A stretch of DNA of 32,785 nucleotides. Origin: Parcubacteria group bacterium GW2011_GWC1_45_13 (GTDB lineage Bacteria > Patescibacteriota > Minisyncoccia > UBA11713 > 2-01-FULL-45-33). Position numbers and translations under genes: made by a program. Numbering within the stretch: the first letter of the stretch is position 1; every line of letters starts with the position of its first letter. Positions 2,265 through 9,905 of this stretch are shown here, in pieces. Where the stretch lies: the NCBI GenBank assembly GCA_001001285.1, contig LCKG01000005.1:1-32785 (forward strand), given 5' to 3'. A model generated the notes under the pieces. It saw nothing but the letters and a program-made list of their open reading frames with translations. It was not told the origin of the DNA and ran no database searches.

Positions 2265-2286
2265 AAGAGATTTTTGTGGTATGATT
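2265..2286 (+). promoter_or_regulatory. extended -10 promoter, third copy of the AAGAGATTTTTGTGGTATGATT motif
   Basis: 22-bp exact match to 7023-7044; TGgTATGAT extended -10; 17-bp match to 4802-4818. Confidence 0.6.
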
Positions 2287-2295
2287 TAATGTTGT

Positions 2296-3072
2296 ATGGA
2301 AGCAAGAAGTCCCAAGGAGGTTTTACTTACTGGCGGAACTGGATTTATAGGTAGTCGTATCACGGCAGAATTAAAAACTATGAAAAAGTCAAATTCAATG
2401 ACGTACAAAAAACAAAGAACTAAAATAAAATTTATATTTGAATCTACAATACCACAAAAGAATTTTTATATCAGAAATGCTCATTCGAATATCCAGAAGT
2501 TAACTAGATTGTTTTCTGTTTCTCCCTCTTTTGTTGTAGTGCACGTTTTTCGAAATAGAGCATCATTTTTAAAGGCAATCCACAAAAAGAAGGTGCCTGA
2601 TTGGCTTGTTGCTCTCGTGCCTCCAAAAAACACCTCTCGTATTTATGTATTTGACAATAAAGAGAGGATTGCTTCAAAGAAGCTATTGGGTCAGGTAATA
2701 CTACATGAAATAACCCATCTCTATACAAATGCGTTAAATCCAAATCTGCCGGATTGGTTAAGCGAGGGGATAGCGGTATATGTTGCAGCCCAAATTTTTA
2801 AGCCCTCAATATCAACTGCGGATTGGAAAAAGATTACACAAGAAGGCGCGCCCTTCAAGCGAGTGTCTTGGAGAATTGCCGCAGAACATAACGGTTATAG
2901 TATTGCTGGGTTGCTAGTTATGTTTTTTGTAAGGCGATATGGCTGGGAAAAATTTATTGCCGCGATAAGCCACCGTCACTCAAGGCGTATTTCTATTAAA
3001 AGCATCCCATTATACTTCGATGAGAAATTCGAACGGTTTATAGCCGACTTCAAAAAACAGTTTGTAAAATAA
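2296..3072 (+). CDS. peptidase MA-like (gluzincin) protein with an epimerase-like N-terminal remnant
   Basis: HEITH (HEXXH) plus downstream LSEGIAVYVA (third ligand E). The N-terminus VLLTGGTGFIGSRI resembles a nucleotide-binding NAD-epimerase N-terminus. Confidence 0.7.
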   Translation: MEARSPKEVLLTGGTGFIGSRITAELKTMKKSNSMTYKKQRTKIKFIFESTIPQKNFYIRNAHSNIQKLTRLFSVSPSFVVVHVFRNRASFLKAIHKKKVPDWLVALVPPKNTSRIYVFDNKERIASKKLLGQVILHEITHLYTNALNPNLPDWLSEGIAVYVAAQIFKPSISTADWKKITQEGAPFKRVSWRIAAEHNGYSIAGLLVMFFVRRYGWEKFIAAISHRHSRRISIKSIPLYFDEKFERFIADFKKQFVK

Positions 3073-3074
3073 AA

Positions 3075-3103
3075 AAGGGGGAAGTGTGGTTAACTTCCCC
3101 CTT
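3075..3103 (-). terminator. terminator of the radical SAM/precursor operon
   Basis: Perfect 11-bp inverted repeat AAGGGGGAAGT/ACTTCCCCCTT with a T-run on the minus-strand 3' side (CCCCCTTTTTTATTTT). Confidence 0.75.
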
Positions 3104-3132
3104 GATGTTGCGGGAGACGCGCGTCTAACGGT

Positions 3133-3288
3133 TCACTTGACGCACGGATTTGAGTCGCAACTGAAGCAAGTGTTGCATTCAACGCTGACATCGCTACCGG
3201 CCATCTCTGCGCCGAACAGCGGGACTTCGGCGAACACTTCGTTCTGCTCGTTCTCAGCGGCTGTGTCGTTACGAATGTCTGCTTCCAT
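3133..3288 (-). CDS. putative Cys-rich RiPP precursor peptide (51 aa), absent from the supplied ORF track
   Basis: Minus-strand translation MEADIRNDTAAENEQNEVFAEVPLFGAEMAGSDVSVECNTCFSCDSNPCVK*. SD AAAGGAG. The start lies 2 nt after the radical SAM stop codon; a terminator follows. Confidence 0.8.
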   Translation of the reverse strand: MEADIRNDTAAENEQNEVFAEVPLFGAEMAGSDVSVECNTCFSCDSNPCVK

Positions 3289-3290
3289 TG

Positions 3291-4649
3291 CTATTTTCTC
3301 CTTTCTTGCTGATTTGCTGGTTTTATTAGGAAACCTTTCCGGATCAGCTTCTGATACAGACGTTCTACGTTTTTGCGCTCACTTTTGGTCCTTGCGCCAG
3401 AGCGTTTGAGGAAGGATAAAAAGTCAAATTTCTCTCCCTTTTCCGCTACAGTCTTGAGGAAAACCACAGCACTGTGATTTACTAGGACGATGGCTAAAGG
3501 GTCAGTTCTGTAAACTAACGCCCCAAACGGCTCGTTTCGAAACCCTACTTGTGGACACACCATAACCTTAGTCGGGATGTCGCTTATCTCCTCGGACAAG
3601 TGTGAGACCAAACGTTCCTGTGATAAACCGACCAAACGCCGTGTGTCAGCATAGCAATCCATGTTCTTCAAACCGGACGTGAGCGTGTTGACGCGACAAC
3701 CCCCTCTGCAGGCAGTTACGACCGGACAACCATGACACTCCTCGGGGATAAACTCGCCCTCACGCCAACCATCCATTTCCTGCCAGATATCGGCGAGCGG
3801 TTTGTGAAAGATATTCCCGTAGCTTGTTTCCAAGTGAGAACATGGTCTCACTTTCCCGTCGGCACCGATTGTAACTGTTGTATAGCCAGCCACACAGGTG
3901 CGGTGCGAGAAGCGTTGGTACGCAGGAGTGCCTGCAAGGAAACATTTGGGGTAGCAACCCAAGATGTCGACGGGAATATCAAGCAGTTCCTCAATCCGCA
4001 TGAGCTCGGCGAGAGACCAATGTACCTCCTCTGCTGACAGGAGAAATGCGCTGTCAGGTGCATGGGCATTAGGGAGTGCCTTTGTCGCACAGAATGTACG
4101 TACACCGAGATTCTTAGCAAGGCGCGCCGTAACCTCCATTGCGTGGAGGTTTTCTCGCATGAGAACCATGTTGAGACTCACCGGAATCCCATGCTGGATG
4201 GCCAAGGCTGCTATCTCAATCACTCGGACGTAGGAACCGCTTGGGGCACCAGCGAGATGTTCATGCTCTGCCGCGTCTGCTGAAAGAAGTGAGAAGAGGA
4301 TTGATACGTTACTGTGTTTGTTAGCGAGCTTCTCGATATCTTCTTTTTTCACGAGACTAAGGTTTGTGTTAATTGATGCGTGAATACCCGCTCTCTCAGC
4401 CGTTTCCAGTAGCATAAAAATTTCTCTGCGTTGTGAAAATGGCTCGCCGCCAGTGATCGTGATCGACGGAACTTGGTTTGTAACTAGTTCCTGCACGATG
4501 CGAAAAAGATTCTCGCAGGAAAGATGTCGACCGGGCTTGGTTGTTGTCCCAGCTGAACGCCAGTAGTTATAACAATGGCGGCATCGCCAGTTGCAAGCCT
4601 GTGTCAGCTCGATTTGCGCATCTACAGGAGCGTTGAGTTTAGCCGCCAT
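3291..4649 (-). CDS. radical SAM/SPASM peptide maturase with C-terminal PqqD/RRE-like region
   Basis: CNWRCRHC (CX3CX2C) motif, GGEPF, SPASM cysteines (GKVRPCSHL...ECHGCPVVTACRGGC). The C-terminal ~100 aa (FRNEPFGALVYRTDPLAIVLVNHSAVVFLKTV...LYQKLIRKGFLI) is PqqD-like. SD AAAAGGAGAATAAATCATG. Confidence 0.85.
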   Translation of the reverse strand: MAAKLNAPVDAQIELTQACNWRCRHCYNYWRSAGTTTKPGRHLSCENLFRIVQELVTNQVPSITITGGEPFSQRREIFMLLETAERAGIHASINTNLSLVKKEDIEKLANKHSNVSILFSLLSADAAEHEHLAGAPSGSYVRVIEIAALAIQHGIPVSLNMVLMRENLHAMEVTARLAKNLGVRTFCATKALPNAHAPDSAFLLSAEEVHWSLAELMRIEELLDIPVDILGCYPKCFLAGTPAYQRFSHRTCVAGYTTVTIGADGKVRPCSHLETSYGNIFHKPLADIWQEMDGWREGEFIPEECHGCPVVTACRGGCRVNTLTSGLKNMDCYADTRRLVGLSQERLVSHLSEEISDIPTKVMVCPQVGFRNEPFGALVYRTDPLAIVLVNHSAVVFLKTVAEKGEKFDFLSFLKRSGARTKSERKNVERLYQKLIRKGFLIKPANQQERRK

Positions 4650-4732
4650 GATTTATTCTCCTTTTTTCTGCTGATTTTGAACTATGTCAGGGTGCTATGC
4701 AGAACAAAGCTATTTTGCTCTATCTATTGGTA

Positions 4733-4760
4733 ATAATAAGCAATTGTTAGTTATTGTCAA
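4733..4760 (-). promoter_or_regulatory. sigma70-type promoter for the radical SAM operon
   Basis: Minus strand TTGACA-N16-TATTAT. Confidence 0.6.
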
Positions 4761-4872
4761 TAACTATGCTTATTTCTATATTAACTCCTCTTATTCCGTC
4801 CATTTTTGTGGTATGATTGGGGATATGAAAACTCGGCTATCTTTGTTTCTTTATGAATGGATTTAAACTTAT
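4757..4872. repeat. direct repeat copy A (promoter plus first codons of the 7078 gene)
   Basis: Aligns with 6981-7097 over about 116 bp with scattered substitutions; includes the exact stretch ATCTTTGTTTCTTTATGAATGGATTTAAACTTAT. Confidence 0.9.
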
Positions 4873-4904
4873 TAAAAAAAGGCTCCGGTGTAGTTTCAGA
4901 ACCT
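4873..4904 (-). terminator. terminator of the ATP-grasp gene
   Basis: Minus strand GGTTCT...GGAGCC stem followed by TTTTTTTAAT. Confidence 0.55.
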
Positions 4905-4909
4905 TATAA

Positions 4910-5905
4910 TTACGGCCTGTTCGAATACGCAGTAGGATCAACAAGCAAATCCGCTATCGCTTTGGAAATCGGCATGCCAGTAATAGCTTCAATCCATCCC
5001 CACTGGCCGCTCGGATTGACCTCGAGGAAGACATAATCACCTTTCGGTGTGAGGATCATATCGATAGCGCCAAACTGCAAATCCCAAATGCGCATAGCCT
5101 GCAGGAGTTTCTTTACAATTTCCGGAGGCAATTCACATGGCTCGTGTTTAACGTGACCAAAGTCATATCGGCGCCAATCATACATAGTCCGTTTGCTGTC
5201 CTGGGAGTGAATAGCACAGGAGAAGATCCTATGTCCAACAACTGTGATTCGCAGTTCAAGCTTCTTGGGAATGTAATTTTGAAATATTACCGGCGCATAG
5301 CGAAGCTCGTGGCCGAATTTTTCCAAGCCATCCCGAGTAATAGGAGTAGTAAATACACTTATCGGCCATCCGGAGTCGTTGCGGGTATGGCTTCCAAATG
5401 TCTTCGCCACTATTGCCCCATTCCAACAGTCAAAAAATTCTTTTACCGCATCAAGACAATTTGTAATAAGTGTTGCCGGAGTGGCAAGGCCGACCTGATC
5501 GGCTGTATGTAACTGAAGAGGTTTACTGTGTTCCAATTTGCGAAGAGCCGAAGGATGGTTAACCCAGACTATTTCGTTGGTATCCGCACTGTTCCACAAT
5601 GCCATTAGAAACCGCTGGTTTTCGTTTTCAGCGTATTTCCTGTGATTTTCAGTGAGCTTTTCAGTGATGATAGTCACATTTGACGGTCTTCGGTACCAGA
5701 CTGCCTTGATATTATTAGCCGAGATAGTCTGCATACCACAAGTCAACAAGAAATCTATTTCTCCTTTTTCTACTTGAAGAGTAAGACCATGCCCTACAAG
5801 CTGATCTGTATTCAATCGCAGCACTTGGCTAGATACCAAATGCTTTTGCACCTCTGGCACATTGAGCTCGTTGGAGTCAGTTACTATCAGAATCTTGTCT
5901 CTCAT
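4910..5905 (-). CDS. MvdC/MvdD-like ATP-grasp peptide ligase (graspetide-type)
   Basis: AVWYRRP, FQNYIPKKLELRITVVGHRIFSCAIHSQ, DLQFGAIDMILTPKGDYVFLEVNPSGQWGWIE motifs. Upstream SD AAAGGAAA. Confidence 0.85.
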   Translation of the reverse strand: MRDKILIVTDSNELNVPEVQKHLVSSQVLRLNTDQLVGHGLTLQVEKGEIDFLLTCGMQTISANNIKAVWYRRPSNVTIITEKLTENHRKYAENENQRFLMALWNSADTNEIVWVNHPSALRKLEHSKPLQLHTADQVGLATPATLITNCLDAVKEFFDCWNGAIVAKTFGSHTRNDSGWPISVFTTPITRDGLEKFGHELRYAPVIFQNYIPKKLELRITVVGHRIFSCAIHSQDSKRTMYDWRRYDFGHVKHEPCELPPEIVKKLLQAMRIWDLQFGAIDMILTPKGDYVFLEVNPSGQWGWIEAITGMPISKAIADLLVDPTAYSNRP

Positions 5906-5957
5906 CGGTTTTTCCTTTCTGCTTTATTTGTCAAAAAGCTCGAATTTGCTATACTAA

Positions 5958-5986
5958 AATATAATCTTATTATTACAATATGTCAA
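5958..5986 (-). promoter_or_regulatory. sigma70-type promoter for the ATP-grasp gene, overlapping the start of the divergent TPR gene
   Basis: Minus strand TTGACA-N17-TATATT. Confidence 0.6.
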
Positions 5987-6666
5987 GTAGAAAAAAAATG
6001 GCCATCGCGTCTCTCGAACAAGAAATATTGGACATTTTTGATCTATCCGCAAAAAATTATAGATATAAAGAAGGTATCAAGAAAATAGAAAAAATAGTAG
6101 AAATTCACCCGGAGTTAAAAAACGAGAGCGTTCTTAGCGAACTTGGATTTCTTTATGACCACCTTGCTCTTCAACAGAAGAATAAGTTATTAAGAAATAA
6201 ATACGAAGAAAAAGCGTTTAATCTCTATCGGGGAGCTCTTAAAAAAAATCGCGAATCTATTAATGCCATATGGGGTATTGGAAGAATTTGGTGGCACAGA
6301 AAGAACAGAAAAGCAGTAAAATACGCGATTAAAGCTGCGAATCTTATGAAAAAATTGCATGGCTCAGCTGGATTGATGTTGCAAAATGTAGGATTAGTTT
6401 ATGAGGCTCTCGGCGACATAAAACGAGCAGAGCAATGGTATTTAAGAGGGTTAAAGGAAGAGCCTAATAATTTCGGTGGTTACTATAATTTATTAAACTT
6501 TCATCACAAGCAGGAGCGGCGTGAGGAAGTTCAAAAACTATTGCCAGCTTTTAAAAAACTTTATCAAAAAGAAACAACGAAGTTTAAAAAAACTTCCTGG
6601 GGCAAGGATATTTTAAAAAAGATCAAAGAACTTGAGCAATTTGTTTTATTACACACGAAAAAATGA
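5980..6666 (+). CDS. TPR-repeat protein
   Basis: Helical repeat pattern, e.g. LMLQNVGLVYEALGDIKRAEQWYLRGLKEEPNNFGGYYNLLNFHHKQER. Confidence 0.75.
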   Translation: MSSRKKMAIASLEQEILDIFDLSAKNYRYKEGIKKIEKIVEIHPELKNESVLSELGFLYDHLALQQKNKLLRNKYEEKAFNLYRGALKKNRESINAIWGIGRIWWHRKNRKAVKYAIKAANLMKKLHGSAGLMLQNVGLVYEALGDIKRAEQWYLRGLKEEPNNFGGYYNLLNFHHKQERREEVQKLLPAFKKLYQKETTKFKKTSWGKDILKKIKELEQFVLLHTKK

Positions 6667-6702
6667 ACACGGGGAGGTCGAGTCAAACCAACCTCCCTGT
6701 GT
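6667..6702 (-). terminator. strong hairpin between the TPR gene and the graspetide precursor
   Basis: ACACGGGGAGGT / ACCTCCCTGTGT, 12-bp stem with one G-T. T-run (CATTTTTT) on the minus-strand side. Confidence 0.65.
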
Positions 6703-6717
6703 ATTAGATACCTCGCT

Positions 6718-6888
6718 TCAGTCCGGGTCGCTCTTTGAGTCCGCGCCATATTTGCCGGTGGCGTAAACGGTTGTTTGGACCGTTGCCATAAATATGCCTT
6801 TATCCAGAATTCCGCTGCTGATTTCTTCCTGCGACATCAGCGGTTCGGCGAACCGAAGAGCAAATGGCATTTCTTGTTGTTTCAACAT
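6718..6888 (-). CDS. putative microviridin-like graspetide precursor (56 aa), absent from the supplied ORF track
   Basis: MLKQQEMPFALRFAEPLMSQEEISSGILDKGIFMATVQTTVYATGKYGADSKSDPD*. Leader PFALRFAE (compare PFFARFLE), C-terminal TGKYGADSKSDPD (compare TxKYPSDxxE). SD AAAGGAGG and a sigma70 promoter upstream. Confidence 0.8.
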   Translation of the reverse strand: MLKQQEMPFALRFAEPLMSQEEISSGILDKGIFMATVQTTVYATGKYGADSKSDPD

Positions 6889-6940
6889 AGGTTTTTCCTC
6901 CTTTCTTTAAAGCTTTGATTAAACACGACTATCTACGACC

Positions 6941-6968
6941 ATTGTATTACTCTTAATCTTGCCGTCAA
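6941..6968 (-). promoter_or_regulatory. sigma70-type promoter for the graspetide precursor
   Basis: Minus strand TTGACG-N16-TACAAT, giving a 5' UTR of about 45 nt with SD AAAGGAGG. Confidence 0.65.
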
Positions 6969-6980
6969 GCGCTACACGAT

Positions 6981-7097
6981 TCAATAATTATGCTTATTTC
7001 TGTACTAATCCCTCTTATTCTAAAGAGATTTTTGTGGTATGATTGAGGTATGAAAATTTGGTTATCTTTGTTTCTTTATGAATGGATTTAAACTTAT
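6981..7097. repeat. direct repeat copy B
   Basis: Paired with 4757-4872; contains the promoter and start of the 7078 gene. Confidence 0.9.
7050..7091 (+). CDS. possible 13-aa upstream peptide MKIWLSLFLYEWI overlapping the start of the 7078 gene
   Basis: ATG lies 6 nt after the TATGAT -10; the TAA stop overlaps the downstream ATG region. The frame is also open in copy A (MKTRLSLFLYEWI). Confidence 0.35.
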   Translation: MKIWLSLFLYEWI

Positions 7098-8247
7098 CGT
7101 TGAAGCTATTCGCGATTTATTTTGGCCTCTATCGCCGCATTGGTTATTTCAAAAAAAATATAAATCTCCAGCTTTTGCTTTTATTGTGCATCCGCGCGAT
7201 GTCGTTGATGTTTATAAAAAGTACCCCCATTTTAGAATTTTGCATCCCAAAATCGTTGAATGGTTTTTGTATCATTTTTGGCCAGTTGTTATTTCTGAGG
7301 TAACAGGATTAAAATCTGTTGAAAGTGGGATGCCGATACGGGGTTGGGTCCTTAGCATTCCTCTTACTGCAAAACAAATGATGACCAACCGTACTAAAGC
7401 AGTCGCAATGATACGTCGATCAATAAAATTAGCACATTGTAAAGGCGCAACTATAGTTGGGTTAGGAGCCCTTACCGCCTCAATTACATATAGGGGCAAG
7501 GATGTAGAGGATTTAGTAAAGCGCCTTGATATGGGAATCACAAGCGGGGTGGGGTATACGGCTTTTAATATAACGGAAATTTCTCTGATTTTATTAAAAC
7601 GATTCAGACTAAATCCGGCAGATGAGGTTTTTGCTGTCGTAGGAGCCGCAGGCGCGATAGGAAGCGCTACAATACGTTTTTTATTGCATAAGGGGATAAG
7701 ACGTTTTGTTCTAATAGACTTAGATCGTAAGCATAGCAGAATAGAAGAAATAATAAATAAAAAATTATTCCCAAAAGCTTCTTTTTATATTACAGCTAAA
7801 CTTGCTGAGACAAAACGTTGCAGGTTTATAATTACTGCAACAAATGCTCCGGAAGCGCTGATTAAAAGCGAACATCTTAGCCCCGGCACTATCATAATTG
7901 ATGATGCACAGCCATCCGATATAGATCCAGGGGTTGTTATGAAACGAGACGATGTTTTGGTAATAGAAGGAGGAGTAACTGAAGTGAATGGTATTTCGCC
8001 AAATGTGAGTTTTGGCTTAAAGCATGATACAGATGTATTTTCTTGTCTTGCGGAAGTTATGGTTTTAGCTGCGTTCAATCGAGATCATGAGCGGAGCCTA
8101 GACTATGCTAATCCCGAAGATATAGAGGACATGGGAAAGAATGGTAATGTATTAGGTTTCAGTCGTGCGGAATTACAGAATTTTCAAAAAGTGTATTCTG
8201 AAAAAGATTTAGATAATTTTTATAAAAATTATTTGGAAAATAAATGA
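7078..8247 (+). CDS. Rossmann-fold protein resembling long-chain acyl-ACP reductase (AAR)
   Basis: ADEVFAVVGAAGAIGSATIRFLL NAD-binding motif. The architecture (GLGALTASI, ITSGVGYTAF, VIEGGVTE, FSCLAEVMVL) parallels cyanobacterial acyl-ACP reductase. Confidence 0.65.
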   Translation: MNGFKLIVEAIRDLFWPLSPHWLFQKKYKSPAFAFIVHPRDVVDVYKKYPHFRILHPKIVEWFLYHFWPVVISEVTGLKSVESGMPIRGWVLSIPLTAKQMMTNRTKAVAMIRRSIKLAHCKGATIVGLGALTASITYRGKDVEDLVKRLDMGITSGVGYTAFNITEISLILLKRFRLNPADEVFAVVGAAGAIGSATIRFLLHKGIRRFVLIDLDRKHSRIEEIINKKLFPKASFYITAKLAETKRCRFIITATNAPEALIKSEHLSPGTIIIDDAQPSDIDPGVVMKRDDVLVIEGGVTEVNGISPNVSFGLKHDTDVFSCLAEVMVLAAFNRDHERSLDYANPEDIEDMGKNGNVLGFSRAELQNFQKVYSEKDLDNFYKNYLENK

Positions 8248-9905
8248 TTTTTCCGGAGCTCGTCTTAGATATAAAAAATTTAATTATTATAAGCGTGACT
8301 ATTTTGCATGCCGCGCTCGGTATAGTCATCTCTCTTAGAGGCCCTAATAAAAAACAAAATATTACTTTTGCGCTTTTGGAATTAAGCCTCATTACTTGGT
8401 CGGTAAGTATGGTGTTTTATAGAAGCTCGACTGGTTTAGAGGCGATTTTTTGGGTCAAGATGCTTTATTTGTGGGCGCTTTTTATACCTTATACGTTTAT
8501 TTATTTTTTATTTACATTTCCTGAAAATAGACTTGGCGAGTTTCCTAAAATCTATCAGTTTTTTATGATAGTGCCAGTATTGTATTTTGTCTGGGAAATA
8601 TTTTTTGGCAAATTTATTCTCGGCGTTAAACCGGCTTTGCCAGAACCGGCTATAATTTTTAATCTTGCCGTGGAATATGCTTACGCAACGTATATTATAA
8701 TTTATTTTTCTTTTGGTTATTTGCGTTTATTTAAACTTTATCGACAATCTAGCGGAATTATTAAAACGCAAGCAAGATTTTTGTTACTTGGGACGCTTAT
8801 CCCTACGTTATTAGGAACGCCTGGCAATTTATTTTTACCATTAATTAACATTTTTTATTTAAATTGGTCAGGTCAGACGGTAATTGTATTGATGGCGGTT
8901 ACTATTGCGTATTCAATTATAAAATACAATCTACTTAATATAAAAGTTATCGCCACAGAAGTACTTACTATTTTAATTAATGTCTTTATCATAATCCGGT
9001 TTGTGGGGTCAAATACTATAGCTGATTTCTTCGTTAATGGCATATTTTTATTAGGAGTCGCCATATTCAGTATTTTATTAATTCGCAGTGTACAGCAAGA
9101 AGTCCGATCGAGGGAAAGAATTGAACAATTAGCCAAAGATCTTGAGCAGGCGAATGTGGATTTGGTCAAGCTCGATGAGGCCAAATCGGAATTCATATCG
9201 TTGGCAAGCCATCAGTTGCGGGCGCCGCTCACGGTGATTAAAGGTTATACTTCCATGTTGCTGGAGGGAACTTTCGGTGAAATAAATAAAAAAGCTGTCG
9301 CGGCGATAGATAGAGTATTTATATCCGCCAACAATCTGACAAAATTGGTATCGGATCTTCTGGATCTTTCCAGAATTGAATCCGGCAAGATGAAATACGA
9401 GTTTAAAGTGATTCATTTGGATGATGTTGTGGGAAAAGTTTTAAAAGAATTGGAAGCCGTGTCCAAAGAAAAGCGCATTGCCATAGAATTTAAAAATGAA
9501 AACAATAAAACCTTCAGCGTTTTTGGGGACGCCGATAAACTTTACGAAGTTGTTATGAATTTGCTGGATAACGCTCTTAAATATTCTAAAATCGGCCCAG
9601 TAATTGTAACCTTGACGCCGCGTTCCAAAAGGTTGGTGTTGTCGGTGGCAGATAGGGGCATGGGAATACCTCAAGAAGAAATTCCCAAGCTCTTTCAAAA
9701 ATTCGGCAGGACCGAAATCGCCAAAATAGAGCGGCCTGAAGGCATGGGGCTGGGGCTCTATTTCGTAAAAAGAATCGTGGATGACCACAAAGGCCGTATC
9801 TGGGCGGAGTCGGACGGTTTGGGCAAGGGGAGTACATTTTTTGTGGAGCTGTCTATCAGGTATGATTTTCAAGACGAAAATGAACAATTTCTTAGCGCGC
9901 TCTAG
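8244..9905 (+). CDS. membrane-bound sensor histidine kinase
   Basis: N-terminal multi-TM region; H-box ASHQLRAPLTVIKGY; N-box NLLDNALKYS; G-boxes DRGMGIP and GMGLGLYFVKRIV. ATGA overlap with the preceding gene. Confidence 0.93.
   Translation: MIFPELVLDIKNLIIISVTILHAALGIVISLRGPNKKQNITFALLELSLITWSVSMVFYRSSTGLEAIFWVKMLYLWALFIPYTFIYFLFTFPENRLGEFPKIYQFFMIVPVLYFVWEIFFGKFILGVKPALPEPAIIFNLAVEYAYATYIIIYFSFGYLRLFKLYRQSSGIIKTQARFLLLGTLIPTLLGTPGNLFLPLINIFYLNWSGQTVIVLMAVTIAYSIIKYNLLNIKVIATEVLTILINVFIIIRFVGSNTIADFFVNGIFLLGVAIFSILLIRSVQQEVRSRERIEQLAKDLEQANVDLVKLDEAKSEFISLASHQLRAPLTVIKGYTSMLLEGTFGEINKKAVAAIDRVFISANNLTKLVSDLLDLSRIESGKMKYEFKVIHLDDVVGKVLKELEAVSKEKRIAIEFKNENNKTFSVFGDADKLYEVVMNLLDNALKYSKIGPVIVTLTPRSKRLVLSVADRGMGIPQEEIPKLFQKFGRTEIAKIERPEGMGLGLYFVKRIVDDHKGRIWAESDGLGKGSTFFVELSIRYDFQDENEQFLSAL

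Follow-up and report, generated by a model that had tools for sequence, protein, structure and literature searches.

Microviridin leaders carry the motif PFFARFLE and microviridin cores the motif TxKYPSDx(E/D)(E/D), which is cyclized by ATP-grasp enzymes through omega-ester or amide bonds. Two ligases are employed, one ester-forming and the other amide-forming. Then, could a related peptide system be encoded by a CPR bacterium? The initial annotation of the DNA analysed here took such a system to be new for CPR lineages, but graspetide loci in CPR bacteria had already been reported (Makarova et al., 2022; PMC8939145). In that survey, branch 1 is characterized by TPR genes, by precursors with a Phhx(1,2)h motif and, in most of them, by the core TxxxTx(6-10)Dx(1-4)D, while the loci of branch 2 often encode SPASM enzymes and many of them lack an identifiable precursor.

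Here, we analyse one contig of a Parcubacteria-type CPR bacterium, whose genome comprises 756 kb in an assembly estimated to be 95% complete. The whole contig (32.8 kb) is referred to as the window. Positions 4873-6980 are highly likely to constitute a compact graspetide (RiPP) module, probably gained by horizontal transfer, which consists of a precursor, an ATP-grasp ligase and a TPR protein. The central claim of the initial annotation, a graspetide ligase with its cognate precursor in a CPR genome, is borne out by the ligase models and by the recurrence of leader and layout in related loci, and the coordinates, strand and translation that it gave for both genes are exact. Its inventory stopped at these two genes, and the TPR gene, the direct repeats that bracket the module and a neighbouring RiPP-like system were missed.

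The ATP-grasp ligase and its distribution

The ligase gene (4910-5905, minus strand) has 331 codons, and its translation opens with MRDKILIVTDSNE. Among the NCBIfam models, TIGR04187 scores best (240.7 bits, E = 2e-71), followed by MvdC (237.9 bits, E = 1.5e-70) and MvdD (229.5 bits, E = 5.5e-68), while the RimK model reaches only 46.2 bits, about 200 bits under these three. It should be noted that every NCBIfam graspetide model scores the ligase under its curated cut-off, which is 350 bits for TIGR04187 and 230 bits for the grasp-with-spasm model TIGR04192 (115.7 bits for the ligase). The Pfam model of the MvdD pre-ATP-grasp domain (PF21068) is matched with 45.9 bits, which exceeds its cut-off of 27. 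The nearest solved structures are the microviridin ligases 5ig8, 5ig9 and 7m4s together with CdnC 7mgv (E down to 2.5e-48). In an alignment of 18 ligases from the class, 18 positions are invariant, including K128, K168, E217, R219, D243, R245, D282, E295 and N297. In view of the model scores, the Pfam domain, the solved relatives and the invariant residues, the gene product is, as judged from its sequence, a graspetide synthetase and a divergent member of the MvdC/MvdD/TIGR04187 family. A grouping with non-RiPP ligases, which the initial annotation had named as an argument against this reading, was not seen in the profile, structure-match or tree comparisons. A hairpin followed by a T run at 4876-4905 (minus strand; -10.4 kcal/mol, z -2.1) is the probable terminator of the ligase gene.

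This ligase is the only graspetide-ligase match in the entire genome. In the ligase tree, it is sister to the ligase of Candidatus Wolfebacteria S40-20 (locus L037/L062; support 100/99, 48% identity) and is not grouped with MdnC. The ligase domain is present in 22 of the 384 genomes sampled from the class of the host, and is absent from the two other members of the genus and the seven other members of the family that were searched. With their tiny genomes, CPR bacteria live mostly on other cells. That such a bacterium keeps a dedicated peptide-modifying system which its sampled relatives in the genus and family lack suggests that the system serves in encounters with hosts or rivals, and the peptide would probably act in an interaction with the host or with competitors.

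The precursor peptide and its predicted rings

The 56-aa ORF (6718-6888) lies on the same strand as the ligase gene, from which it is separated by 812 bp, in line with the spacing of about 0.8 kb given initially. Its leader motif PFALRF (residues 8-13) matches the Phhx(1,2)h type, and the predicted core region TTVYATGKYGADSKSDPD (residues 39-56) contains Thr and Lys as donors and Asp as acceptors, spelled T40-VYA-T44-GKYGADSKS-D54-P-D56 from T40 onwards; Cys is absent from the peptide. A Shine-Dalgarno (SD) sequence, AAAGGAGG, is located 8 nt upstream of the ATG, and a hairpin downstream of the ORF (6672-6697) folds at -21.7 kcal/mol (z -2.96), both as described before. Because the TPR and precursor genes converge at this hairpin, it can terminate both of them and is probably a bidirectional terminator. 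The promoter-like site TTGACG-N16-TACAAT (6941-6968, minus strand), previously presented as the ORF's own promoter, is indeed present as a consensus match, but it lends little weight, since 15 such matches were observed in the region against 10.2 +/- 3.2 expected by chance. The precursor matches no family model in NCBIfam or Pfam, and no close relative of it was found in the collections searched.

Its leader and position do recur in homologous CPR loci. We scanned 23 loci with a pattern (SD, 35-90 aa, leader motif and acidic tail) that had been devised after some examples were known. Within 1.5 kb of the ATP-grasp gene, 17 precursor-like ORFs were found, that is, the present one and those of 16 other loci, and all 17 are on the ligase strand; the identical pattern yielded one ORF in 172 kb further from the ligases and a mean of 0.7 in shuffled flanks. 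The Wolfebacteria locus has the same layout as the window, with the ligase and TPR genes diverging and the TPR and precursor genes converging, and its small ORF on the ligase strand carries the leader PFPVRFAE and a matching tail, PTTVDTTGQYEDVRTDE. In L036, the same gene order includes an ORF with PFLTRFAK...DYANDDQ, and the precursor ORF of L041 reads MGNNVPFPLQFAEPLA...TGTGGHGDTDTDTDTD. Named CPR and cyanobacterial public records repeat the pattern, the cyanobacterial leaders being of the form PFAMxFAVEP. That the 56-aa ORF arose by chance, the ligase being real and its true substrate encoded elsewhere, is very improbable: the ORF is not conserved over its whole length among relatives, and CPR loci without a nameable precursor have been published (PMC8939145), but the count near the ligases, the shared strand, the position and tail kept in the closest relative, and the presence of an SD and a promoter-like site all speak against it. 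The ORF is thus very probably the precursor of the adjacent ligase, and the 17 candidates provide a usable motif for finding precursors that the 2022 survey left unnamed.

Which rings would be formed? In an alignment of nine precursors, P8, G45 and D50 are found in 9/9 rows and F9/F13 in most, the tail TT..TG..D...D is common to most of the nine, and the nearest relatives share the core TT-V-x-x-TG-x-Y-x-D-x-x-x-D. The initial annotation had instead read the core as that of a microviridin with PSD replaced by GAD. A true microviridin-type precursor, with a TxKYxxD cage closed by a Thr ester and a Lys amide, would agree with the segment T-G-K-Y-G-A-D, in which T, K, Y and D are spaced as in microviridins, and with the resemblance of PFALRF to PFFARF. 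It is nevertheless unlikely, given that PSD is missing, that the Lys of this segment gives way to Gln in the closest relative (TTVDTTGQYEDVRTDE) and, across most relatives, to Gln, Gly or some other residue, that the genome holds a single ligase where microviridins use two, and that this ligase is away from MdnC in the tree. The description "microviridin-like" therefore holds for the kinship of the ligase and for the PFxxRF leader, and fails for the core and for the number of ligases. Since the relatives share the TT/TG/D/D pattern while the core Lys varies, esters from Thr to Asp are the better-supported prediction.

For such esters, the ligase would bind the precursor through the PFALRF leader and, at the cost of ATP, phosphorylate the C-terminal Asp residues (candidates D50, D54 and D56) on their side-chain carboxylates. 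The Thr hydroxyls (T39/T40 and T44) would attack the acyl phosphates to give a predicted two or three macrolactones, whose connectivity is likewise predicted, and Lys (K46/K52) is a less likely donor, as an amide. Leader removal and export would be carried out by proteins encoded elsewhere. The module has no exporter or leader peptidase linked to it, and no C39 peptidase was found anywhere in the genome.

The TPR-repeat protein (5980-6666, plus strand; 228 aa, Pfam TPR_14 E = 2.7e-6) is encoded in the 812-bp gap, its gene lying head-to-head with the ligase gene and tail-to-tail with the precursor gene. Homologues occupy the same position in L037 (46% identical) and L036 (28%), and one lies downstream in L041 (24%); the modules of L039 and L043 likewise hold TPR genes. 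A requirement for a partner protein has been demonstrated for other graspetides, such as rosaritide, whose ligase needs a co-encoded partner (PMC13097080). On this precedent, the conserved TPR gene is a good candidate for the partner, and its product would probably stabilise the ligase or the precursor, although the partner in rosaritide is a PpiC-type isomerase and not a TPR protein.

Direct repeats bracketing the module

Two direct repeats, both on the plus strand, enclose exactly the ligase, TPR and precursor genes. A reductase gene (7078-8247) has its promoter region and first codons within the right copy (6981-7097). The left copy (4757-4872), recognized by sequence identity, is a truncated duplicate of that promoter and 5' end, which breaks off about 20 bp into the reductase gene. 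The two copies are 86% identical over 118 columns and form the only pair of such size in the window. No near relative of the reductase gene was detected in the 11 other genomes of the group searched. A 13-codon ORF is kept in both copies (7050-7091 and 4825-4866, plus strand; MKIWLSLFLYEWI and MKTRLSLFLYEWI, respectively); it overlaps the start of the reductase gene and is possibly a coupled leader peptide.

Among the Parcubacteria loci, 8 of 21 ligases are bracketed in this way, compared with no bracketed case when, as a control, a 1-kb gene was placed at 7206 positions in other DNA (about 380 kb) of genomes in the set. The bracketed loci are the window, L036 (94 bp), L041 (119 bp, 99% identical), L039, L042, L043, L049 and L035, where L049 (73% identical) and L035 (copies of one promoter) are the weaker cases. 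In further records, bracketing was found in 1 of 13 CPR loci and 3 of 28 others. Each locus has its own repeat sequence, which originates in the adjoining DNA, either a gene or its promoter or terminator; the repeat of L041, for example, corresponds to the 3'-terminal part of a histidine kinase gene. No shared site motif was seen by eye at the repeat edges.

Because the repeats bracket 8/21 ligases and 0/7206 controls, mobility of the modules is suggested, and we propose with moderate confidence that the repeats may mark mobile cassettes, inserted with duplication of the flanking DNA. A serious, if doubtful, possibility is that they are just promoter or terminator sequences that recur at genes under common control and say nothing about mobility. 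Such a reading would suit L035, where one promoter sequence recurs five times, as well as the terminator-like hairpins within the repeats of L036, L039 and L042. However, it does not fit the histidine kinase 3' end duplicated at 99% identity in L041, the start of the reductase gene that is included in the window repeat and truncated after about 20 bp, or the absence of bracketing among the control placements. Should the repeats reflect a cassette mechanism, the gain and loss of such peptides in streamlined bacteria could be mapped with their help.

Several further observations concern repeats and flanking genes. The five promoter copies of L035 (TTGACT-TATAAT; 703-843, 1884-2029, 4391-4483, 5809-5918 and 8420-8544) are spread over 8 kb around the ligase, and an integron-like array was considered for them and rejected, since they are copies of one promoter. 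The module of L066 is likewise bracketed by direct repeats; those of the window, L036, L039, L041, L042, L043, L049 and L066 measure about 75-145 bp. In L037, repeats of a histidine kinase 3' end (5292-5354 and 6033-6095) stand on both sides of a Nudix-like gene that adjoins the module. The window also encodes a histidine kinase whose N-terminal region is of the 7TM type (8244-9905, plus strand), and such kinases occur near four ligases (window, L037, L041 and L050); an association of kinase and ligase was not retained, because genomes with any such kinase carry 2 to 7 matches and the proximity may be due to chance.

The neighbouring radical SAM system and comparison with known systems

Beyond the left repeat lies a second gene group. 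The gene at 3291-4649 (minus strand) encodes a SPASM radical SAM protein (Radical_SAM 1.9e-25, SPASM 9.6e-9) with a C-terminal MftB-like peptide-recognition domain, which the MftB model TIGR03967 matches at E = 1.2e-7 with 31.9 bits, slightly below its cut-off of 33. Two nucleotides past its stop codon begins a Cys-rich 51-aa ORF (3133-3288, minus strand; SD AGGAG; C-terminal end VECNTCFSCDSNPCVK), the probable substrate of the enzyme. A zincin-type metallopeptidase gene with the motif HEITH (2296-3072, plus strand; Peptidase_MA_2 E = 1.7e-4, below cut-off) is convergent with it. A third short match to the promoter core of the repeat (2265-2286, plus strand) precedes the zincin gene, whose first approximately 25 codons (2296-2385, plus strand) resemble the start of an SDR/epimerase.

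In 384 sampled genomes of the class, this radical SAM family is represented by 15 loci, one of which is the window. A Cys-rich ORF (small, SD-preceded, with at least four Cys near the end) adjoins the radical SAM gene in 9 of the 15, compared with 2 such ORFs in 259 kb of background DNA. Several of these ORFs share CYDCDxNCEECD or a near variant, and most of the homologous radical SAM genes have an HExxH ORF as a neighbour, as in the window. The trio of radical SAM enzyme, Cys-rich peptide and zincin recurs in Parcubacteria (L146, L147, L148, L150, L151 and L156). None of the three Cys-rich peptides tested has a match in NCBIfam, and literature searches returned no description of the trio, which is apparently a RiPP system undescribed so far.

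Does the radical SAM enzyme tailor the graspetide instead, so that 2296-6888 is one doubly modifying cluster of the grasp-with-SPASM type? The genes are adjacent, SPASM genes are frequent in the published CPR loci of branch 2 (PMC8939145), and four genomes (G000, G014, G027 and G170) occur in both the 22 with a ligase and the 15 with a radical SAM gene (384-genome samples). Even so, we regard this as quite improbable, given that the radical SAM gene has a Cys-rich ORF of its own, which recurs beside the family, that the graspetide precursor lacks Cys, that the direct repeat 4757-4872 lies between the two gene groups, and that the radical SAM protein scores far below the NCBIfam cut-offs, with TIGR04193 not among its 25 best matches. 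The more fitting reading is that the radical SAM genes form a RiPP system of their own. For the overall picture we see about an even chance: that the Parcubacteria modules move as cassettes some 2 kb long, comprising a precursor, a ligase and a TPR or similar gene, which would insert at gene ends, duplicate 55-145 bp of flank and be losable by recombination between the repeats, and that the adjoining radical SAM, Cys-rich peptide and zincin genes form an undescribed RiPP system recurring in the class.

Compared with mycofactocin MftB/MftC and other SPASM RiPP maturases, the radical SAM system has the SPASM domain and the MftB-like recognition domain in common, and differs in the fusion of the latter, the Cys-rich substrate candidate and the zincin neighbour. 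The graspetide module shares with the microviridins (MdnB/MdnC and MvdC/MvdD) the ligase family, the PFxxRF leader, the Thr/Lys donors and the acidic acceptors. However, neither the TxKYPSDx(E/D)(E/D) core nor the pair of ligases that defines microviridins is found in the window: one ligase is accompanied by a TPR gene, GAD stands for PSD, no acidic pair occurs at the expected place and the Lys is not conserved. With the actinobacterial GRASP_SAV_5884 / GRASP_targ system (TIGR04187 / TIGR04186) it shares the best-scoring ligase model, below the 350-bit cut-off.

The closest counterparts are the CPR loci of Makarova et al. (2022; PMC8939145), with which the window has the CPR host, the single ligase, the TPR gene, the leader and the core in common. 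Its precursor (T-VYA-T-(9)-D-P-D) and TPR gene fit branch 1, a fit judged on the precursor core and the TPR gene, as the ligase tree gave the Wolfebacteria sister only. Unlike the related loci L035, L049 and L115, the window module has no DUF6624-like gene; DUF6624 may be cluster 23 of that survey. A word search of the survey found no mention of bracketing repeats. Graspetide systems of CPR bacteria are already known, and what is new here is the peptide, the bracketing repeats and the neighbouring second peptide system.
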